Position numbers and translations under genes: made by a program. From Halarchaeum rubridurum (GTDB lineage: Archaea; Halobacteriota; Halobacteria; Halobacteriales; Halobacteriaceae): a stretch of 64,000 nt of DNA. The notes beneath the pieces are model-generated. The model saw only the letters and a list, made by a program, of their open reading frames with translations, had not been told where the DNA came from and searched no databases. Numbering within the stretch: the first letter of the stretch is position 1; every line of letters starts with the position of its first letter. Location of the stretch: assembly GCF_014647115.1 (NCBI RefSeq), contig NZ_BMOO01000003.1:372001-436000 (forward strand), read 5' to 3'. Of the stretch, positions 53,878-62,624 are shown one piece after another.

Positions 53878-53904
53878 GGCGGCGCGTCGATCGGTCCCCG
53901 CACC

Positions 53905-54264
53905 TCAGCCGAGGAGGAGGCGAAGGTTGTAGACGGTGAAGAAGCTCCCGACGAGCGTCAGCACGACCGGCGGGAAGTAGTAGCTGAATCGGTCCTCCCA
54001 CTGACGCGCCGCGCGGACGCTCACGGCGAGACAGAGACAGATGACCGCGATCTTCCACGCGGCGAGCCCCGCGAACCCGAAGCGTGCGAGGACCGCGGCG
54101 ACGATGGGGTTCCCCTCGACGACGGCGGGTGCGTACCGATGGAGCGTCAGCGTCGTGAGCGTGTCCCCGACGCCGTACGCGGTGGTGGCGAGAATCCAGA
54201 GCCAGTAGAACTCCTCAACGTCGGCGAACTCGCGCGGAAACGGCAGGAGAGAGCCGACGCCCAT
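53905..54264 (-). CDS. DUF5658-like small membrane protein
   Basis: 119 residues with three membrane spans at about 20-42, 63-85 and 95-117. The pattern YGVGDTLTTLTLHRYAPAVVEGNPIVAAVL is the form of DUF5658-type haloarchaeal membrane proteins (polytopic with conserved D-x-x-T and NP). Function unknown; 41 nt from the stop of the regulator gene downstream on the same strand. Confidence 0.65.
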   Translation of the reverse strand: MGVGSLLPFPREFADVEEFYWLWILATTAYGVGDTLTTLTLHRYAPAVVEGNPIVAAVLARFGFAGLAAWKIAVICLCLAVSVRAARQWEDRFSYYFPPVVLTLVGSFFTVYNLRLLLG

Positions 54265-54305
54265 ACGTGGGCGTCACCCCCCTCCCTCAAGAAACTACGC
54301 AGTGC

Positions 54306-54881
54306 TCAGTCACTTCCCTCGATGTCGCGTGGCGGGCCGTCGTGGCCGAGCCGTCGCACGCGGTCGTAGTAGACGTCGGTGGCCGCGGAGAGCGCGAACG
54401 CGGCGACGATGAGTGCCGTCCACGTGCCCATCGGGAACGCGTCGAACGGGACGACCTCCAGCCACGCGACCGTGAGCAGCGCCGCGGCGACGGCGCTGAG
54501 CCCGAGGTAGTACTCGCTGCGCTTGATCTCGTTCTCCGGGACGACGTCGAGGTAGAGTTCGACGTCTTCGAGGTTCCCGGGTTCGACGACGCCGCGGTTC
54601 GCGTCGTACTCGATCACGTCCGCGTCGTCCAGACGCGGCAGGTGGGTCTGACGGAGCGCCGTGTAGACGCGTTTTCGCTGTTTGTGCGTCACCGCCCCCG
54701 GCGCGACGTCGTTCTCCCACGCGGAGAGCTGTTCGGAGAGTTCGCGGAGCTCGACCGGGCGCTCCTCGCGGCGCAGATAGTGGAGCGTGTGCCGCCGCCG
54801 GCTGTTGCTCAGTAGGTCGAAGACTTCCTCGCGCGATACCGTCGATTCGTCCGTAGTCTGTGTTGTCCTCGCTTGTGACAC
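54306..54881 (-). CDS. Membrane-anchored winged-HTH regulator (DUF7344-like)
   Basis: 191 residues, GTG start at 54881. N-terminal winged helix at about 15-100: VFDLLSNSRRRHTLHYLRREERPVELRELSEQLSAWEN and TALRQTHLPRLDDADVIEYD, the haloarchaeal DUF7344 pattern. Two membrane spans at about 125-145 and 150-170 place it at the membrane. A GGAGG Shine-Dalgarno lies 7 nt before the GTG but its 5' part is inside a hairpin (54890-54908). Divergent from the fibre operon starting at 55144, so it is the likely local regulator. Confidence 0.8.
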   Translation of the reverse strand: MSQARTTQTTDESTVSREEVFDLLSNSRRRHTLHYLRREERPVELRELSEQLSAWENDVAPGAVTHKQRKRVYTALRQTHLPRLDDADVIEYDANRGVVEPGNLEDVELYLDVVPENEIKRSEYYLGLSAVAAALLTVAWLEVVPFDAFPMGTWTALIVAAFALSAATDVYYDRVRRLGHDGPPRDIEGSD

Positions 54882-54889
54882 GTCTCGTC

Positions 54890-54908
54890 CTCCCCCCGAC
54901 GGGGGGAG
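54890..54908 (-). promoter_or_regulatory. Hairpin sequestering the Shine-Dalgarno of the regulator gene
   Basis: On the minus strand CTCCCCCC-GTC-GGGGGGAG forms a perfect 8-bp stem whose 3' arm runs into the GGAGG Shine-Dalgarno in front of the GTG at 54881. TATA-like elements at 54936-54944 and 54924-54930 would start transcription just upstream. Confidence 0.6.
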
Positions 54909-54935
54909 AATTGCAGCATCCTAACATAATGGTAT

Positions 54936-54944
54936 CGTATAAAT
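54936..54944 (-). promoter_or_regulatory. TATA-like element of the regulator gene
   Basis: Minus-strand ATTTATACG in the AT-rich centre (54920-54960) of the 262-bp divergent intergenic region; expected start of transcription near 54913. Confidence 0.45.
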
Positions 54945-55080
54945 TGACTGTATAGCTGCCTGAAACTATTTGGACCGGCAACTGGTGGGTCACTCTCGCG
55001 GCGCGTACGGTCGCCATACCGCCGTCGAAACGTCCGCATACCGGTTCGTACGGCCGGCCGGACGAACCGTCGGGCGGCGC

Positions 55081-55088
55081 ATACATAG
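55081..55088 (+). promoter_or_regulatory. Putative TATA box of the fibre operon
   Basis: ATACATAG about 56-63 nt before the ATG at 55144; a start near 55110 would leave a leader of about 34 nt. No Shine-Dalgarno motif is seen before that ATG. Assignment is tentative. Confidence 0.35.
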
Positions 55089-55143
55089 GGGGGTGTAGTC
55101 TCGTGGTGTCGACGTCGGCGGGGCAACTCGTCGGGCACACACC

Positions 55144-55740
55144 ATGGCAGACATCCAACTCACGCGTCGGTCCGTCCTCGTCGCGGTCGTCGCCGTCGGC
55201 CTCGTCGCCGCCGGTGCGGGCGCGGGGACGATGGCGCTCTTCAGCGATCAGGAGCAGAGTGCGAACAACACGATTCAGGCCGGGACGCTCGACCTCTCGA
55301 TGGGCGAGTCAGCCAGCTTCGTCGCCGACGGCGACAACATGAACCTGAAGCCGGGCGCCTCGACCGGCGGGGACGTGACGCTCTCGAACACCGGGAGCCT
55401 CGACGGCACCGTCGCGCTGAACGTCACGTACGCGGAGAGCGACAACGACGAGTCGACGGACAACACGACGGACATGAACGCCACCGAGACCGCGAAGGTA
55501 CTCGACGTCACCGAGCTCACGTACGGTGGCTCGCCGATTATGGAGAACGTCAGCGACACTGACGGCGACGGCACGAAGACGCTCTACGACCTCTCGCAGT
55601 CCGAGGTCGACGTCGGCGCGCTTGACGCGACCGAGGAGAAGGACTTCAACGTCACGCTCACGATGCAGGAGAGCGCGGGCAACGGCTACCAGAACGACGG
55701 CGTCGACGCGACGTTCAACTTCACGGTGACCCAGGCGTAA
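55144..55740 (+). CDS. TasA/camelysin-like exported protein 1 (SipW-type signal)
   Basis: 198 residues. The signal combines a twin-arginine motif (LTRRSVLV, Arg8-Arg9), a hydrophobic core and the SipW-type end GTMA|LFSDQE (expected cut after Ala31). Then NNTIQAGTLDLSM, the hallmark of TasA/CalY proteins, followed by a beta-rich domain with GGDVTLSNTGSLDG and the ending FNFTVTQA. About six N-glycosylation sequons (for example NNT, NVT, NTT, NAT). First of three tandem homologues; its stop overlaps the next start (TAATG). Proposed major or minor fibre subunit assembled outside the cell. Homologues in Bacillus (TasA) and Pyrobaculum (AbpA) form fibres. Confidence 0.82.
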   Translation: MADIQLTRRSVLVAVVAVGLVAAGAGAGTMALFSDQEQSANNTIQAGTLDLSMGESASFVADGDNMNLKPGASTGGDVTLSNTGSLDGTVALNVTYAESDNDESTDNTTDMNATETAKVLDVTELTYGGSPIMENVSDTDGDGTKTLYDLSQSEVDVGALDATEEKDFNVTLTMQESAGNGYQNDGVDATFNFTVTQA

Positions 55741-56957
55741 TGAGCGACGAGAAGATCAACCTCTCGCGGCGGAAGGTCCTCGGCGGCCTCGTCACGCTCG
55801 GCGCGGCCGGCGCGGCCTCGGGCGCGGGGACGTTCGCGCTGTTCAGCGACCAGGAGAGTAGCACGAACAACACGGTGCAGTCCGGGACGCTCGATCTCAC
55901 CGACCCGACGACGACGATGGACGCGTCGGTGACGGCACTCGCGCCGGGCAAGTCAACCAGCGGCTCGGTCACCCTGACGAACGGTGGGTCGCTCACGGCC
56001 GACCACCTCGAAATCGGCGTGGCCTCGATCAGCAACAGCGACGGCGACACGAGTAAGCCGGACGGCTCCGGGTCGTCGGACAAGTCCGCGAGCGACGTCG
56101 TCGACCACCTCTACGTGGACGAGCTCTCGTACGGGACCGGGGGCGTGGCCAATATGGTCCCGACCGTCCAGCTCCCGGGTGCGTACACGTACGATTTCGG
56201 CAGCGGGGCGGACATCGCCTTCGAGACCGTGACCGCCTCGGAGGCACCGGAGTCGGACAGCGCCCCGAGCGGGGACATCCTGCACATCTCCTCCGAGGCG
56301 AACACCGGCAAATACGCACACTCGATGGTCGACGTCTCGGAGCAGGCGCTCACGCTCGACGACCTCAACAACGGGACGTTCTCGTACGACTACTACGCGA
56401 CGACGGAGAACACCGTGAAAGCCCCCGACGAGGTGAAAATCGTCGTCGAGGACACGGACGGGTCCGTCCGCTTCCTCTATCAGCACCGTGGCGACCCGGA
56501 GGACACGACGAGCACGGGATGGACGACTCGCGACGTCTCCTCGGACCTCGCCGAAGGCGACCTCGCCTCGAACGCGAACAACTGGGGCGAAGTCGATATG
56601 GCGACCGGGTCGACGTCGTCGCTCGGCGACAGTCCGCGCCCGGAGTACGGCGACGCGACCGTCCTCCTCGTCGGCGTCGGAGCCGCGAACACGAACGGGA
56701 GCGTCGACGTCCGGCCGGACCTCTACTACGGTGACCTGCAGGTCGGCTCGGAGACGCACGCCCTCCCGAGCACGCCCGCGACGCTCACCGACCTCTCGAA
56801 CACGGTCGTCGACAGCCTCGCGGCACCCGGCGACGGGACGGACTTCGCGTTCACCCTGCGTCTCGACCCCGAGGTCGGTAACGCCTACCAAGGAGAGGGC
56901 ATCGACCTCTCGTTCGCCTTCGGGCTCGCCCAACAGGCCGGCCAGGACGTCCTCTAA
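55740..56957 (+). CDS. TasA/camelysin-like exported protein 2 with large inserted domain
   Basis: 405 residues. Signal LSRRKVLGGLVTLGAAGAAS with twin arginine at 10-11 and GTFA|LFSDQES (cut after Ala33). TasA-like start NNTVQSGTLDL and VTLTNGGSLTADHLEIGV match proteins 1 and 3. Between about residues 140 and 360 lies an extra beta-rich domain (YTYDFGSGADIAFETV through VDVRPDLYYGDLQV), absent from the other two, before the shared terminal strand LSFAFGLAQQAGQDVL. The insert resembles a carbohydrate- or jelly-roll-type module in its strand pattern; no motif proves it. Could be a tip, branch or cross-linking subunit. Confidence 0.8.
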   Translation: MSDEKINLSRRKVLGGLVTLGAAGAASGAGTFALFSDQESSTNNTVQSGTLDLTDPTTTMDASVTALAPGKSTSGSVTLTNGGSLTADHLEIGVASISNSDGDTSKPDGSGSSDKSASDVVDHLYVDELSYGTGGVANMVPTVQLPGAYTYDFGSGADIAFETVTASEAPESDSAPSGDILHISSEANTGKYAHSMVDVSEQALTLDDLNNGTFSYDYYATTENTVKAPDEVKIVVEDTDGSVRFLYQHRGDPEDTTSTGWTTRDVSSDLAEGDLASNANNWGEVDMATGSTSSLGDSPRPEYGDATVLLVGVGAANTNGSVDVRPDLYYGDLQVGSETHALPSTPATLTDLSNTVVDSLAAPGDGTDFAFTLRLDPEVGNAYQGEGIDLSFAFGLAQQAGQDVL

Positions 56958-56961
56958 GGAG
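56956..56961 (+). promoter_or_regulatory. Shine-Dalgarno of TasA-like gene 3
   Basis: AAGGAG overlaps the stop of gene 2 and lies 8 nt before the ATG at 56970; one of few clear Shine-Dalgarno sites in the window. Confidence 0.65.
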
Positions 56962-56969
56962 CACCCCCA

Positions 56970-57692
56970 ATGTCAGACGAACAGTCGTCTCGGGTTCGCC
57001 TCACGCGACGCAAGCTCCTCGCGGGGCTCGGCACTATCGGTGCAGCCGGTGCGGCCAGCGGTGCGGGGACGTTCGCGCTGTTCAGCGACAGCGAGGCGAG
57101 CACGGGGAACGAGATCGACATGGGGACGATGGACCTCGTCGTCCGCGACGGCGACAGCGGCGACGGCTTCGGTGACGGCGTCAGCGGGACGTTCACCGTC
57201 GAGAACGCAAAGCCGGGCGACACGATGAACGGGAGTGTCGAACTGAAGAACGCCGGGAGCATCGCGGCCGACCACGTCGAACTCGGCTTCTCCGTCTCAC
57301 CGACGGAGGGGTCGTACGGCGGTACGGACGGCGGCGACACGCAGGACGGCGCGACCGGGATGGCCGGTCAGTTCGGTGTCGGACAGTTCGATTACCCAAA
57401 GGACGGTAGCGGGCCGTACGATACCCTCGACGTAGACGGACTGGACGCCGGTGCTGATGGCCCCGAGATGGCGACGCTCGCCGACCTCGTCGACGGCACG
57501 AACGCCGACGAGCTCGACGACCTCAACCCGCCGCCGGAGCCGGACGGGACGCGGACGCTCGACATCGGCCTGAAGTGGCTCGACGACGCCGAGCACGACC
57601 TCACCCACCCGAACAACGACTTCCAGGGCGACACGCTCGACGTGACGATCCACTTCGCGCTCGCGCAGGAACCCGACCAAGACGTCCTCTAG
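56970..57692 (+). CDS. TasA/camelysin-like exported protein 3
   Basis: 240 residues. Signal LTRRKLLAGLGTIGAAGAAS, twin arginine at 13-14, end GTFA|LFSDSEAS (cut after Ala36). Then GNEIDMGTMDL, FTVENAKPGDTMNGSVELKNAGSIAADHVELGF and the terminal strand VTIHFALAQEPDQDVL, nearly the same as protein 2. A Gly/Asp-rich loop at about 110-125 may bind Ca2+ or salt. The signal and N-terminal strand are almost identical to protein 2, so the pair arose by tandem duplication. Confidence 0.82.
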   Translation: MSDEQSSRVRLTRRKLLAGLGTIGAAGAASGAGTFALFSDSEASTGNEIDMGTMDLVVRDGDSGDGFGDGVSGTFTVENAKPGDTMNGSVELKNAGSIAADHVELGFSVSPTEGSYGGTDGGDTQDGATGMAGQFGVGQFDYPKDGSGPYDTLDVDGLDAGADGPEMATLADLVDGTNADELDDLNPPPEPDGTRTLDIGLKWLDDAEHDLTHPNNDFQGDTLDVTIHFALAQEPDQDVL

Positions 57693-57713
57693 TACAGTCA
57701 CACGACCACTCGG

Positions 57714-57753
57714 CCCACTCGGAGCACGGCGGTTCGACTCCGCCGGTGGGTCA
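57714..57753 (+). other. tRNA T-arm-like hairpin in the fibre operon
   Basis: GGCGG-TTCGACT-CCGCC (57728-57744) is a perfect T-arm with a canonical TTCRA loop, followed by GGTGGGTC and A like an acceptor 3' strand. CCCAC at 57714-57718 can pair with GTGGG (57746-57750). No anticodon or D-arm is present. It lies in the 106-bp gap between genes 3 and 4 of the operon and could act as a processing site, a partial terminator or a remnant of tRNA-targeted integration. Confidence 0.55.
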
Positions 57754-57788
57754 TCCGCCCATGGACCGACACCGAGTCACACCCGACC

Positions 57789-57794
57789 GGAGGG
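57789..57794 (+). promoter_or_regulatory. Shine-Dalgarno that fixes the GTG start at 57799
   Basis: GGAGGG 5-10 nt before the GTG; an ATG at 57760 is in another frame and closes at the same place, so the GTG is preferred. Confidence 0.6.
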
Positions 57795-57798
57795 ACGC

Positions 57799-59016
57799 GT
57801 GACGGGCACCGACCGCCCCGACCTCGACCGGCGACGCCTCGCGTTGCTCCTCGTGGTCGGGGCGGTCGTCGTCGGCGCGGGAGCGGGGTTCGTCGCGCCA
57901 CTCGGGTCGCCGTCGGTCGGTCCCGACCCGGCCGCGGCGTCGGGTGCGCCGTCGACACCCGCGGCGTCCGGGGCGACGGCGATGGCCGCGGCACCGAACC
58001 CGCGAGCGGCGTCGCTGTCGCTCGACCTCGGGTCGCCGGGGGCGGTAGCGAACGCGAACGGCACAGTCCGGAACGTCTCGGTGCCGCTCTCGGGGGCGGT
58101 CGCGTGGAACGGGTCGGTGGACCGCGCGGTCGTGACGGTCCGGACGTGGACGCCCGCGGGGTGGCGCACGGCGACGAGTCGGACCGCTCGCCCGTCGGGC
58201 ACGTCGCTCGACCTCGGGACGGCGTTCGGTGCGGTCGCGGTGGCGGACGCGAGCGCGTTCGACAACCCGGCGGCCGGGACGACGGTCGAGCGTCGGGGGG
58301 CGGTGTCGGTCGCGGTGCGGCTGTACGCCGACGGCGAGCGCGTCGGGTCGGCGATGCGGACGCGGGCGTACACGCTCCCGGTGACGAACACGGGCGCACC
58401 ACCCGTCCCGGCGACCGCACCGTCCGCGGGGCCGTCGGGTGACGGCGCGGACGGCGCGGACGGGGACGAGCGACCGCGGTTGGTCCTCGTCGGGAACGAC
58501 CCGGACCCGACCGTCTTCGGCGCGAGTGCACCCGTCCCGGGCGCGAGCGACGTCGAGCACGTGACGCTGCGGAACGCGGGGGACGCGCCCGGTCGGCTGC
58601 ACGTGACGGCGTCGAACTGGACGGACGCGGAGAACGGCCTGATAGAGCCGGAGCGCGCGGCGGGCGACGATACGCCACGGGCGGGCGAGCTCCGCGAGCA
58701 CCTGCGCATTCGCGTCGCTATCGTCGGAGGGGAGAACGAGACGACGTACCTCGTCGGGAGTGCATCGGGGTTCACCGACGCGAGCGCGGCCACGCCGTCG
58801 CGGTTGCGCACGACGCGGACGCTCGCGCCCGGGGAGAACGCGACGCTCGTGTTCCAGTGGCGACTCCCGACGACGACCGGAAACGTGGTGCAGAGCGACG
58901 CCGCGCGGGTGCGCTACGAGTACCGACTGGGGGAGCCGTCGGGGACGGACGCGGCGTCGAGCACGAGCGCGGTTTTACTCGCATCGTATACGAGTGGAAC
59001 CGAGGAAAAGAGCTAA
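57799..59016 (+). CDS. Exported beta-rich protein of the fibre locus, membrane-anchored or cleaved N-terminus
   Basis: 405 residues, GTG start. N-terminal DRRRLALLLVVGAVVVGAGAGFVAPLG is a signal or membrane anchor without the SipW LFSD ending. An Ala/Pro/Ser-rich stretch (about 35-70) and a Gly/Asp-rich linker (PSAGPSGDGADGADGDE near 213-229) separate two beta-rich domains. The second contains VEHVTLRNAGDAPGRLHV, echoing the TasA-like proteins, and ends ALVFQWRLPTT-like strands and YEYRLGEPSG. At least three N-glycosylation sequons. Probably an anchor or accessory subunit; family not recognised. Confidence 0.65.
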   Translation: MTGTDRPDLDRRRLALLLVVGAVVVGAGAGFVAPLGSPSVGPDPAAASGAPSTPAASGATAMAAAPNPRAASLSLDLGSPGAVANANGTVRNVSVPLSGAVAWNGSVDRAVVTVRTWTPAGWRTATSRTARPSGTSLDLGTAFGAVAVADASAFDNPAAGTTVERRGAVSVAVRLYADGERVGSAMRTRAYTLPVTNTGAPPVPATAPSAGPSGDGADGADGDERPRLVLVGNDPDPTVFGASAPVPGASDVEHVTLRNAGDAPGRLHVTASNWTDAENGLIEPERAAGDDTPRAGELREHLRIRVAIVGGENETTYLVGSASGFTDASAATPSRLRTTRTLAPGENATLVFQWRLPTTTGNVVQSDAARVRYEYRLGEPSGTDAASSTSAVLLASYTSGTEEKS

Positions 59017-59058
59017 TACCAGTAATGTCCGCACACTCACACATGGGGGAGGGGGACG

Positions 59059-60639
59059 GTGTCGTCGCGTAAGCGGGCGGCGGTGGTGCTTGCACTCACT
59101 GCGCTCGTCTGTGCGGCCACCGGCGCTGCGGGGACACATACCCTACTCAGCGACACTGAGTCGGCGGAGCTGGGGGTGCAGGCCGCGGCGGACTTCACCG
59201 TCGAAGTCTCGAACGCGAACGCGACGCGTTCTCACGCGTCGAGCGGGGATGTCTGTGAGGTGCGAAGTGACAACGGGAAGCCGCACGTCCGCGTGACGCT
59301 CCGGGGACTCGAACGAGCGGACCAAATCGAGTCGGTCTCGCTCGTCGACGGCGCGAACCCCACCAAATTCGGTTCGTGCGGCGACGACTACGTCGTCTGG
59401 TTCGACTGGAACGACGTGAAGAAGACCACGGGCGCGAACGGCCGGTTCGCCGTCCGCGGCGTCTGGGCGTCCGGTCGGGACTTCGTAGCGACCGACCTCA
59501 CCGTCGAGTCACCACAGCAGGGAGAACGCGAGAAGTGCGATCGCTCGAACGCTGGCACGCACGACTCGCACGTCAGCGCGGAGTCGAACGTCGAGGATTC
59601 CTCCCTCCGTGAGGCGACAGTCGGCGAGTCGAACATCTACGCATCGACGGTCTGTCGGGCCTCCGTACAGGACTCGCTGCTGCGTAACGCGACCCTCTCG
59701 AACGGTTCTGTCGACGGGAGTACGGTCGCGGACAGCAGGGTCAGCGACGCGAACGTCAGAGGATCGACGCTGGTGAACGCGACGGTCGTGAACGCGACGG
59801 TCCACGACGCACAGTTGCGTAACGTCACGGTCCGCGACGAGTACGTCTCGGACGAGAGACGCGAGGGGACGAGAGCGCCCTCGCAGTCGGCGACCACCGT
59901 GAAGTCGACCGCAGCGCCTGCCGCGAACGGCACGAAGGCGGCGACCGAGAGCGCCACGACGTCGCCCGGGAACGACACCGCGTCGGCGGGGAACGTCACC
60001 GACTCCGTGCCGTCCGCCGAAAACGGCTCGGCGAACGCCAGTGCCGCACCGTTCGAGAACCGGAGCAACGCGTCAGCAGCGGGCACGAACGTGTCCGCGC
60101 GCGCACCGAACTCGACGGCGGACGCGAACGCCACGGCCGACGGGTCGGCCGCTCCGAGCGGTGACGGGGCGACCATCGAGTCGAACGCGTCAGCCGGGGC
60201 CGACGGGGTCGACGAAGCGAACACGAGCGCGGATGGCGAAACGACCACCGGGCCGGACACGGCGGCTACCACGACAGGGCGCAACGGCGCGGAATCGGGG
60301 ACGACGAACGCGACGCCGTCCGGCTCGGCGAACGACGGCTCGACGGCGTCGAAGGCGACCGACGCGACGTCCACGACTGCCACCTCGTCCGCGACGGTCG
60401 AGCCGACGCCGGCCGACGCCGAAAACGACGGCTCGACGACGACGACCACGTCGAGCGCGTCGAGCGCGTCGAGAACGTCGAGCACGACATCCTCGCCGAC
60501 CACCAGTGCGTCCACATCGGCGGGGTCGCCGACGACCTCGACGACTTCGACGACCACGGACACGACACGAACCGAGTCGACGTCGAGTTCGGTCGGTGAC
60601 GCCCCGGGTGCGGCGCACAACGAGACTGAGACACAATGA
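59059..60639 (+). CDS. Exported repeat protein with Ser/Thr-rich glycosylatable stalk
   Basis: 526 residues, GTG start with GGAGG (59048-59052) 6 nt upstream. The signal ends GTHT|LLSDTE, a SipW-like end with Thr in place of Ala. Residues about 40-160 form a globular domain with CEV, SCGDDY and KCD cysteines. Residues about 172-260 are short near-pentapeptide repeats (S-x-V-x-D/N, for example STVADSRVSDANVRGSTL) of beta-helix type. Residues about 275-526 are a Ser/Thr/Ala/Asn-rich low-complexity stalk. About 20 N-x-S/T sequons overall. No membrane anchor at the C-terminus. Likely adhesin or matrix component; overlaps sipW by ATGA. Confidence 0.7.
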   Translation: MSSRKRAAVVLALTALVCAATGAAGTHTLLSDTESAELGVQAAADFTVEVSNANATRSHASSGDVCEVRSDNGKPHVRVTLRGLERADQIESVSLVDGANPTKFGSCGDDYVVWFDWNDVKKTTGANGRFAVRGVWASGRDFVATDLTVESPQQGEREKCDRSNAGTHDSHVSAESNVEDSSLREATVGESNIYASTVCRASVQDSLLRNATLSNGSVDGSTVADSRVSDANVRGSTLVNATVVNATVHDAQLRNVTVRDEYVSDERREGTRAPSQSATTVKSTAAPAANGTKAATESATTSPGNDTASAGNVTDSVPSAENGSANASAAPFENRSNASAAGTNVSARAPNSTADANATADGSAAPSGDGATIESNASAGADGVDEANTSADGETTTGPDTAATTTGRNGAESGTTNATPSGSANDGSTASKATDATSTTATSSATVEPTPADAENDGSTTTTTSSASSASRTSSTTSSPTTSASTSAGSPTTSTTSTTTDTTRTESTSSSVGDAPGAAHNETETQ

Positions 60640-61178
60640 CACAGCGTACAACTCTCGATGGCCGTACCGTTCGCAACCTCGTCGGACTGCTCGTCCTCGT
60701 CGCGGTCGTCGCGCCGTTCGTCGTGACGGCCGCACCACAGGTCGTCGGCGCGACGGGGAGCTACACCGTCCTCTCCTCGAGCATGTCCCCGGCCATCGAG
60801 GCCGGCGACGTCGTCGTCGTGGACGGCGTCGACCCGGCGGACGTCGAGGAGCGCGACGTCGTCACCTTCCACCCGCCCGAGGGCCATCAGCTCGCGAGCG
60901 TCGAGCGCGTGACGCACCGCGTCGTCGACGTCGTCGAGCGCGACGGAACGCTGTACTTCGAGACGAAGGGGGACGCGAACGAGCAGGCGGACAGCGCGCT
61001 CGTCCCCGCCTCGAACGTCGTCGGGACGGTCTGGTTCACCATCCCGAAGATCGGCTACGTGACGCAGTTCGCGGGGACGCCGCTCGGAACGGTGACACTC
61101 GTAATCGTGCCAGCGTTCCTCCTCGTCGTCTCCGAGGTGTACGACCTACTGATGCCGGAGGACGACGCCGAGGAGTGA
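60636..61178 (+). CDS. sipW: Signal peptidase I, archaeal SipW/Sec11 type
   Basis: 180 residues. N-terminal membrane span about 14-34; catalytic Ser49 in VLSSSMSP, His94 in RVTHRVV (the ER-type dyad, His instead of Lys) and Asp113 in TKGDANEQAD; second span about 148-168. It is a SipW-type enzyme expected to cleave the LFSD-type signals of the three upstream TasA-like proteins and the repeat protein. Last gene of the six-gene operon, translationally coupled to the repeat protein. Confidence 0.88.
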   Translation: MTQRTTLDGRTVRNLVGLLVLVAVVAPFVVTAAPQVVGATGSYTVLSSSMSPAIEAGDVVVVDGVDPADVEERDVVTFHPPEGHQLASVERVTHRVVDVVERDGTLYFETKGDANEQADSALVPASNVVGTVWFTIPKIGYVTQFAGTPLGTVTLVIVPAFLLVVSEVYDLLMPEDDAEE

Positions 61179-61238
61179 GCGCGTGAGCACGCGGGCGAGT
61201 GGGACGAGCGGGGCGAGCGGGGGCGGTGGGGCGCGTCG

Positions 61239-62624
61239 CTATCGGCGTTCGTCGGGGTCGCTGAAGCGCCCGCCGAAGGCGCGCGCGACGACCTCGTTGA
61301 GCGCGGGGTGGACGTGGATGGTGTCGCGGATGTCGGCGACGGTGCCGCTTCCGGCGCGCATCGCCACGCAGACCTCGTGGACGAGCTGGGAGGCGTGGGG
61401 GCCGACGACGTGCGTCCCGAGTATTTCGCCGTCGGGCGCGACGAGGACCTTGACGAAGCCGGGCGGGTCGCCCATCGCGGCCCCCATCGCGGTGTCGGCG
61501 TACTCGTAGCCCCCGACGCGGTAGTCGCGCGATTCGGCGCGGAGTTCGGCCTCGGTGTAGCCGACGGCGGCGACCTGCGGGTCGGCGAAGACGGCGTGGG
61601 GCATCGCGGTGTAGTCGACGGCCTCGCGCTCGTCGCGGAGCGCGTTCGTGATGACGGCGCTCGCCTCGTGGTTCGCGGCGTGCTTGTAGGGGTAGCGCCC
61701 GACGACGTCGCCGAGCGCCCAGACGTTCTCCGCGCTCGTCTCCAGGTAGCGGTTCGTCGCCACGTATCCCTCATCAGTGGTCTCGATTCCGCCCGCGGCG
61801 ACGTCGAGGCGGTCCGTGTTTGGGACGCGGCCGGCCGCGACGAGCACCCGGTCGCCCCGGACGCGCACGGTGTCGTCGCCGTCGACGGCCTCGGCGTCGA
61901 GTTCGATCTCCCCGCCCGATTCGCGGACCGCGCTCGCCTCGTAGCCCGTGCGGACATCGAAACGGTGTTCGTATTGCTCGGTGAAGTGGCGGGCGACCGC
62001 GGGGTCCTCGCCGGGGAGGAGCGCGCCGCGGCGCCCGACGATGGTCACGTCGCTCCCGAACGTCCCGAAGTAGTGCGCGAGCTCCGCGGCGACGTAGCCG
62101 CCGCCGACGATGACGAGGCGCTCGGGCGGTTCGTCCGCGCGGAGGGCCTCCGTACTCGTCCAGTAGTCGACGTCCTCGATGCCTTCGACGTCGGGAATCG
62201 CGGGGCGGGTGCCGGCGGCGACGACGACCTTCTCGCCGCGGAGCGTCTCGTCGCCGACCGCGATGGTGCGCTCGTCGACGAAGCGGCCGGTGTCGTCGAA
62301 AAGCGTGTGGTTCTCTGAGGCCTCGACGCCGCGGCGAATCGCCTCGCTGTCCCGCTCGACGTGGTCGGCGACCTCGTGTACCATCCCCGAGAAGTCGACG
62401 TCCTCGACGGTGGCGTCGATGCCGAACTCGTCGGCGGTGTCGATGCCGCGTTTCACGTCGGCGCGGTGGACGAGCATCTTCGAGGGGACACAGCCGCGGT
62501 TGAGACAGGTGCCGCCGAGCGGGCCGTCCTCGACGACGGCGACGTCGAGACCCTGCCGGGCGGCGACGGAGGCGACGTCCAGTCCGGAGCCGGAGCCGAC
62601 GATGACGAGATCGAAGTCCTGCAT
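61239..62624 (-). CDS. Dihydrolipoamide dehydrogenase-family flavoprotein (mercuric reductase-like)
   Basis: 461 residues from the ATG at 62624. FAD-binding GSGSGLDVA, redox-active CLNRGC (residues about 42-47), NAD(P)-binding GGGYVAAELA, FAD loop VWALGDVV and the active HVHPALNE histidine. It has no linked 2-oxoacid dehydrogenase genes, so its partner is unknown; a free disulfide reductase for lipoamide, mycothiol-like or gamma-glutamylcysteine thiols is possible. In-frame extension to 62750 overlaps the next gene. TATA-like CTAAGCTATT (minus, 62651-62660) 27-36 nt upstream. Confidence 0.87.
   Translation of the reverse strand: MQDFDLVIVGSGSGLDVASVAARQGLDVAVVEDGPLGGTCLNRGCVPSKMLVHRADVKRGIDTADEFGIDATVEDVDFSGMVHEVADHVERDSEAIRRGVEASENHTLFDDTGRFVDERTIAVGDETLRGEKVVVAAGTRPAIPDVEGIEDVDYWTSTEALRADEPPERLVIVGGGYVAAELAHYFGTFGSDVTIVGRRGALLPGEDPAVARHFTEQYEHRFDVRTGYEASAVRESGGEIELDAEAVDGDDTVRVRGDRVLVAAGRVPNTDRLDVAAGGIETTDEGYVATNRYLETSAENVWALGDVVGRYPYKHAANHEASAVITNALRDEREAVDYTAMPHAVFADPQVAAVGYTEAELRAESRDYRVGGYEYADTAMGAAMGDPPGFVKVLVAPDGEILGTHVVGPHASQLVHEVCVAMRAGSGTVADIRDTIHVHPALNEVVARAFGGRFSDPDERR

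Follow-up and report, generated by a model that had tools for sequence, protein, structure and literature searches.

A TasA-family gene cassette with a SipW/Sec11-type signal peptidase, predicted to build surface filaments in Halarchaeum rubridurum and other haloarchaea

Gene content of the locus

The window analysed here, a stretch of 64,000 nucleotides from contig NZ_BMOO01000003.1 of the haloarchaeon Halarchaeum rubridurum, includes a locus at positions 53885-61251 that is best read as a cassette that is gained or lost as a whole and that in all likelihood builds donor-strand filaments of the TasA family on the cell surface. Six plus-strand genes follow one another and another gene is divergent from them, at the coordinates that a preliminary description of this DNA had reported; the gaps between the six are -1, 12, 106, 42 and -4 bases. 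The unit also takes in a DUF5658 gene (53905-54264), which that description overlooked. The features are as follows.

53885-61251: whole cassette, delimited by comparison with two congeners in which the site is empty or replaced
53905-54264, minus strand: small membrane gene of DUF5658 (PF18902, E 3e-4, below the cut-off; family alignment)
54306-54881, minus strand, divergent: winged-helix gene of DUF7344 (PF24035, E 8e-32)
54882-55143: divergent intergenic gap of 262 bases between start codons, presumed promoter region
55144-55740, plus strand: TasA1, predicted filament subunit (PF12389, E 1e-11; model pLDDT 80, top PDB match TasA)
55740-56957, plus strand: TasA2, predicted filament subunit with an insert of ~200 residues (PF12389, E 2.7e-11)
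56970-57692, plus strand: TasA3, predicted filament subunit with a twin-arginine and SipW signal (PF12389, E 1.1e-12)
57799-59016, plus strand: ORF4, candidate membrane base (alignment of relatives; profile-profile match to TasA)
59059-60639, plus strand: stalk, a class-3 protein and candidate cap or initiator (SipW-type start, pentapeptide-like stretch, Ser/Thr tail)
60636-61178, plus strand: SipW/Sec11-type signal peptidase with Ser49/His94 (TIGR02228, E 2e-31)

Three TasA homologues

TasA1, TasA2 and TasA3 are true homologues of the TasA/camelysin proteins, in keeping with the three exported proteins of this type reported earlier: each passes the curated cut-offs of PF12389 and of TIGR04088 (SipW-dependent-type signal peptide), and the genome has no further PF12389 match. 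The adjacency of three such matches beside a peptidase of this kind is far beyond chance, its formal support being the co-conservation described below. A profile of 15 TasA-like proteins, searched against all PDB sequences, recovered only B. subtilis TasA, in the structures 5OF1/5OF2 (E 2.8e-11) and the fibre 8AUR (E 3.5e-11). The AlphaFold model of mature TasA1 (predicted local distance difference test, pLDDT, 80; predicted template modelling score 0.77) found 5OF2 and 5OF1 as its best Foldseek matches (E 7.6e-5), and TasA structures took the top three places in VIA (Z 10.2, 9.1 and 8.7, versus 7.2 for the next, unrelated structure), superposing with root-mean-square deviations of 2.8-2.9 over 129-135 residues (5OF1: Z 10.2, deviation 2.8, 131 residues; fibre 8AUR: Z 8.7). 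The TasA jelly-roll is thus the closest fold in both searches, as the preliminary description had anticipated. AbpA, the TasA-like fibre protein of Pyrobaculum calidifontis, was not among the matches listed in these fold searches of TasA1, which does not exclude it as a relative. TasA2 carries an insert of ~200 residues (about 56157-56774) with no homologue in Pfam, in PDB sequences or in the other TasA loci examined.

The protomer interface of the B. subtilis fibre includes a "proline box" of F29, P62, Q232 and F200 (PMC10151520), and the donor strand that each subunit contributes comprises residues 28-38 (PMC9674648). In the profile alignment, F2, P39 and Q166 of mature TasA1 correspond to F29, P62 and Q232, and all three are invariant across 25 haloarchaeal TasAs. 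This conservation bears on the reading of TasA1-3 as secreted metalloproteases (camelysins) or as soluble, non-polymerising surface proteins, which the Pfam family recommends by its name of camelysin metallo-endopeptidase; conservation is highest at the residues of the fibre interface, TasA1 contains no histidine at all, and several tandem subunits stand beside an anchored head that has no donor strand. The metalloprotease reading was rejected since none of TasA1-3 has an HExxH motif, and this alternative as a whole is improbable.

Export signals and cleavage sites

The signal of TasA1 has the layout LTRR...GTMA/LFSDQE, and the twin-arginine motifs of the three proteins are LTRRSVL, LSRRKVL and LTRRKLL. 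The GTFALFSD motif that had been attributed to all three is found in TasA2 and TasA3, TasA1 having GTMALFSD instead; a fourth, weaker motif of SipW type is present in the stalk (GTHTLLSD), and ORF4 has none. All three TasA proteins have Phe at the second position after the cut (P2'), one of the features that make B. subtilis TasA, which is cut by SipW, a poor substrate for LepB of E. coli (PMC10269814). A SipW motif is recognisable in 79 haloarchaeal TasA N-termini, of which 65 have the P2' Phe and 77 have twin arginine upstream of the motif. Since these signals combine a twin-arginine motif with a SipW cleavage motif, export of TasA in haloarchaea is probably by twin-arginine translocation (Tat), an assignment made with fairly high confidence. 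Twin arginine is found in only one of 21 TasA signals from genomes that belong to the same phylum but not to the class (Fisher 9e-18 versus 77 of 79, a value that serves as a guide only because the sequences share descent). From this difference, TasA export in haloarchaea appears to have shifted from the general secretory (Sec) route to Tat, with the SipW cut site retained.

The signal peptidase

A Sec11-type signal peptidase had been reported at the end of the gene series, and this assignment holds: the protein encoded at 60636-61178 passes TIGR02228 (archaeal signal peptidase I) with 109 bits against a cut-off of 52, it matches human SEC11C (7P2Q, E 5e-18), and S-M-x-P and T-H-R columns are invariant in an alignment of 15 sequences, making S49 and H94 a Ser-His pair and not Ser-Lys. 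It also matches the SipW model NF046067 (E 1e-31, 110 bits), under the curated cut-off of 190 bits, and does not qualify as an equivalog of Bacillus SipW; because it misses this cut-off and passes TIGR02228, it is classed as an archaeal type that would work like SipW. The peptidase is predicted with fairly high confidence to be dedicated to TasA substrates, on the strength of gene linkage and genome co-occurrence; the genome contains further S26 genes. One such S26-type peptidase (G000 contig C2, L126:5682-8788) is encoded next to a DUF5305 gene and a gene for a short exported protein without assigned family, and constitutes a different secretion-linked set within the genome that carries the cassette.

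Conservation of the core

Gene content was compared in 45 non-duplicate loci, namely that of the window, 37 retrieved with TasA as seed and seven retrieved with the peptidase as seed (in Haloarcula japonica, H. mannanilytica, Haloferax elongans, H. larsenii, H. profundi, H. mucosum and Halobacteria archaeon HArc-gm2). The peptidase is present in 43 of the 45, seven of these having been located via the peptidase itself, and one of the two loci without it (G376) has one ~2 kb beyond the stretch examined. Small sets occur in Haloferax mucosum and Haloferax elongans, with one TasA, SipW and a class-3 gene (defined below), and in Haloarcula japonica, with two TasA genes, SipW and ORF4. In a survey of 391 genomes of the class (TasA by PF12389 or profile A6; peptidase at E 1e-30), TasA was detected in 119 genomes, the peptidase in 169, and both in 114 (Fisher p 6e-49). 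Thus the core of the gene set, TasA with its peptidase, is co-conserved, recurring in 43/45 loci and in 114 of the 119 genomes with TasA.

The 119 include PF12389 hits confined to model positions 4-52, mostly not among the loci read. A reading of these as look-alike Tat signals was dropped, several of them adjoining an extended SipW-like peptidase; they probably represent genuine SipW-type proteins that form another subtype. In two loci (L088 and L091) six or seven TasA-like genes stand in an array, several encoding proteins of 500-740 residues, and the L088 array adjoins an extended SipW-like peptidase (~400 residues), seemingly a separate subtype. Outside the class, a peptidase of SipW/Sec11 type lies beside TasA genes in all nine loci found (L134-L142), and four of the nine encode a donor-less TasA head; in three (L139, L141 and L142) two S26 peptidases lie close together.

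Borders of the cassette

DNA of one congener (G236) matches the window up to 53884 and again from 61252, with 1.8 kb of other DNA between; DNA of another (G380) matches up to 53888 and again from 61243 at 91-93% identity. In a related genus, comparison with G221 indicates that G010 lacks the block from inside sipW to inside the DUF7344 gene, lost as one 5.1-kb step, with flanks of ~90% identity. These borders establish that the cassette is gained or lost as a unit, and the nearly identical limits of the empty or replaced sites bear out the description of the locus as self-contained. In a collection of plasmids, the only matches were signal peptidases of <54% identity and one hypothetical protein.

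The site in G380 (L116:736-8254) is occupied by a DUF1102/DUF5305/S26 set, a DUF7344 gene and a lone relative of TasA1, as though one system of surface proteins had taken the place of the other. The P2' Phe of this TasA1 relative has changed to Ser, and no SipW of this type reached the search threshold in the G380 genome, so that a TasA appears to decay once its peptidase is gone. A clean 5.1-kb deletion between congeners (L061 versus L096) leaves sipW and the DUF7344 gene as truncated ends, and offers a useful natural knockout.

ORF4, a candidate membrane base

ORF4, which matches no family in Pfam or NCBIfam, had been described as an anchored beta-rich protein, and it does have an N-terminal hydrophobic segment and a beta domain. 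From the N-terminus, the protein consists of a membrane segment, a Pro/Thr linker, a single beta domain and, at the C-terminus, a TasA head that has no donor strand. In an alignment of 16 relatives the conserved hydrophobic N-terminal segment ends in GAGxG, with no SipW site; next come a linker rich in Pro and Thr, a beta domain that is optional and a C-terminal domain with GNEIQSDxVxFDV at its end. Profile-profile comparison of the head with TasA gave a probability of 99% (E 2.4e-18), and the match starts at the GTLDL strand of TasA, past the donor strand; ORF4 would therefore be a membrane-held TasA head that can accept a strand but not give one, and we assign it with moderate confidence the role of an acceptor-only membrane base. 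In two of the loci outside the class (L137 and L138), a TasA head without donor strand is combined with a signal peptide and several C-terminal hydrophobic segments, which suggests independent support for such a base, the anchor being different and the logic alike.

Several loci of genomes without detected TasA (L097-L102 and L111) have a DUF5658 gene that often adjoins a short ORF4-like gene in which the membrane segment and the Pro/Thr linker are kept; these short genes are possibly remnants after loss of the TasA head.

The stalk and other class-3 proteins

The stalk begins, after a hydrophobic stretch, with GTHT/LLSDTESAELGVQAAADF, which resembles the donor strand of TasA. It continues with a weak pentapeptide match and a Ser/Thr-rich tail, and contains 20 N-glycosylation sequons versus 9.1 expected from shuffles (none of 500 shuffles had as many), in agreement with its earlier description as a glycosylatable repeat or stalk protein. 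Proteins with a SipW-type start and no TasA body were defined as class 3 and are encoded in 29 of the 45 loci; some have bodies rich in repeats, possibly beta-solenoids, and others have bodies that are Ser/Thr/Asn/Pro-rich or PKD-like. With residues past the cut site excluded from the search pattern, the motif hydrophobic-x-[AVG]-[AGD] was found at mature positions 9-17 in 29/29 class-3 proteins, whereas 2000 shuffles gave 3.6 on average and 11 at most, the 29 not being independent events because some of the sequences are related to each other. In 27 of the 29 loci the class-3 gene is on the sipW strand and either adjoins or overlaps sipW, the commonest overlap being 4 bases.

In B. subtilis, tapA overlaps sipW, and the first residues of TapA are common with TasA (PMC10151520). 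By analogy with this shared start and gene overlap, class-3 proteins may be donor-only caps or initiators of the filament, a role to which we attach moderate to low confidence. The body of the stalk matches no TapA family in Pfam or NCBIfam, its likeness to TapA being one of position and N-terminus only.

The same genes would also suit a filament in which the roles are exchanged, the stalk acting as a cell-proximal anchor like TapA, and ORF4 as an assembly chaperone that holds TasA monomers at the membrane. TapA, whose gene overlaps sipW, is located near the membrane (PMC10151520), and the stalk gene and sipW overlap by 4 bases here; however, the stalk has no evident membrane anchor, and anchors are found instead in ORF4 and in the donor-less heads of L137 and L138, so that this exchange of roles is rather unlikely. 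The class-3 protein is also the most variable member of the cassette and, in the window, the most glycosylatable, and in many loci the TasA genes number just one or two, as might be expected of a short adhesin complex bound to the S-layer, in which one or a few TasA subunits link ORF4 to the stalk as the working adhesin. TasA with the same interface makes long fibres in Bacillus (PMC9674648), and we regard such a short complex as improbable beside the TasA-family filament with ORF4 as base and the stalk as cap.

DUF7344 and DUF5658 genes

The divergent gene at 54306-54881 encodes a DUF7344 protein with a winged helix and, by inspection, two C-terminal hydrophobic segments. The membrane regulator of the preliminary description is linked to TasA only in part: the gene is the sole DUF7344 copy in the genome (12 genomes tested had 0 to 29), but the family is present at 21 of the 45 TasA loci. 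DUF5658 genes are found at 27/45, and their genome-level link with TasA is weaker (p 4e-12, 391 genomes). Both families were rejected as strict cassette members, loci seeded with DUF5658 being often without TasA. The DUF7344 protein may be a local regulator of the cassette, with low to moderate confidence.

Proposed working of the cassette

With the homology, fold, conserved interface residues, motifs, gene linkage and cassette borders as its observed footing, the system may work as follows. TasA1-3 would fold in the cytoplasm as self-complemented monomers and, from their twin-arginine signals, would leave via Tat. The SipW/Sec11-type peptidase would cut at GT[MF]A/LFSD, leaving Phe at position 2 and freeing the N-terminal donor strand, which would enter the head of the next subunit by way of the F29/P62/Q232 proline box. 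ORF4, in the membrane, would accept the last strand with its donor-less TasA head and so root the fibre, and the stalk, with its donor-strand-like start and unrelated glycosylatable body, might supply the first strand and end or initiate the fibre as TapA does. DUF7344 might control expression from the divergent promoter, the weakest step of the scheme. The likely outcome would be cell-surface fibres for adhesion, aggregation or pellicles. The twin arginines, the TasA head of ORF4 and the donor-strand-like start of the stalk had been overlooked before.

Several observations weigh against this interpretation. The position of F200 holds other hydrophobic residues, not Phe, in the 25 haloarchaeal TasAs. 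The AlphaFold model of ORF4, built from four sequences, is of low confidence (pLDDT 58), and its Foldseek matches (lectins, arrestins and viral capsids) include no clear match and are not interpretable. Sixteen of the 45 loci have no class-3 gene and some have no ORF4-type gene, so that neither base nor cap is universal; DUF7344 and DUF5658 both occur in genomes without TasA; and filament formation, cleavage and transport are all inferred. Confidence is high for a TasA-family filament system, lower and equal for the dedicated peptidase and for Tat export, lower again for ORF4 as base, lower still for the stalk as cap, and lowest for DUF7344 as regulator. Type IV pili were considered and rejected, no gene of the cassette matching class III signal peptide or assembly ATPase families in Pfam and NCBIfam.

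A broader generalisation is put forward tentatively: Archaea might possess a two-ended TasA filament machine, consisting of subunits that both give and accept a strand, an anchored head that only accepts, and a variable SipW-processed cap or adhesin that only gives. Haloarchaea would have moved the subunits of this machine from Sec to Tat, as pre-folded, self-complemented monomers switched on for polymerisation by signal removal, and the whole machine would come and go as one cassette.

Relation to known systems

The cassette shares with the tapA-sipW-tasA operon of B. subtilis the TasA homologues with F29/P62/Q232 residues, a Ser-His peptidase predicted to be dedicated to them and a sipW-overlapping neighbour with a TasA-like N-terminus; it differs in its three TasA paralogues, twin-arginine signals, anchored TasA head and DUF7344 neighbour, and in the stalk, which is unrelated to TapA except in position and N-terminus. 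The sipW-tasA/bc1280 (capP)/calY region of B. cereus likewise encodes several TasA-type subunits, possibly forming mixed filaments, and an accessory SipW-processed protein; no anchored TasA head is described in the accessible part of the published account (PMC13082335). Pyrobaculum calidifontis AbpA, as described in two papers, forms an archaeal TasA-like donor-strand fibre (PMC9674648, PMC10151520); no sequence or fold match between the two was recovered among the matches listed. The threads of Sulfolobus acidocaldarius (Saci_0406) are also donor-strand filaments with secreted glycosylated subunits and a putative cap, but have been likened to type-I pilins (PMC9715654). The loci outside the class (L134-L142) have TasA beside a SipW/Sec11-type peptidase in common with the cassette, with a donor-less head in four, but have Sec-type signals and other anchors.

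Archaeal TasA homologues are already known (PMC10151520, citing the work on Pyrobaculum). No TasA-SipW locus of haloarchaea, and no relevant link of TasA or camelysin with haloarchaea, was found in a literature search that mostly covered papers outside subscription, which is weak evidence of novelty; the haloarchaeal arrangement of TasA relatives with their own peptidase, a membrane base and a cap-like protein could not be found described.

Implications

TasA-type fibres are associated with the biofilms of Bacillus and, among archaea, with hyperthermophiles. The cassette occurs in up to a third of haloarchaeal genomes (119/391, both searches combined), including species of Haloferax and Haloarcula. 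Conserved and well bounded, it would serve as a tractable model for biofilm fibres in archaea. A question that follows is how Tat can export subunits when their polymerising strand has to remain concealed until signal cleavage, and the donor-less anchored head suggests how a fibre may be rooted in a cell that has no peptidoglycan wall.

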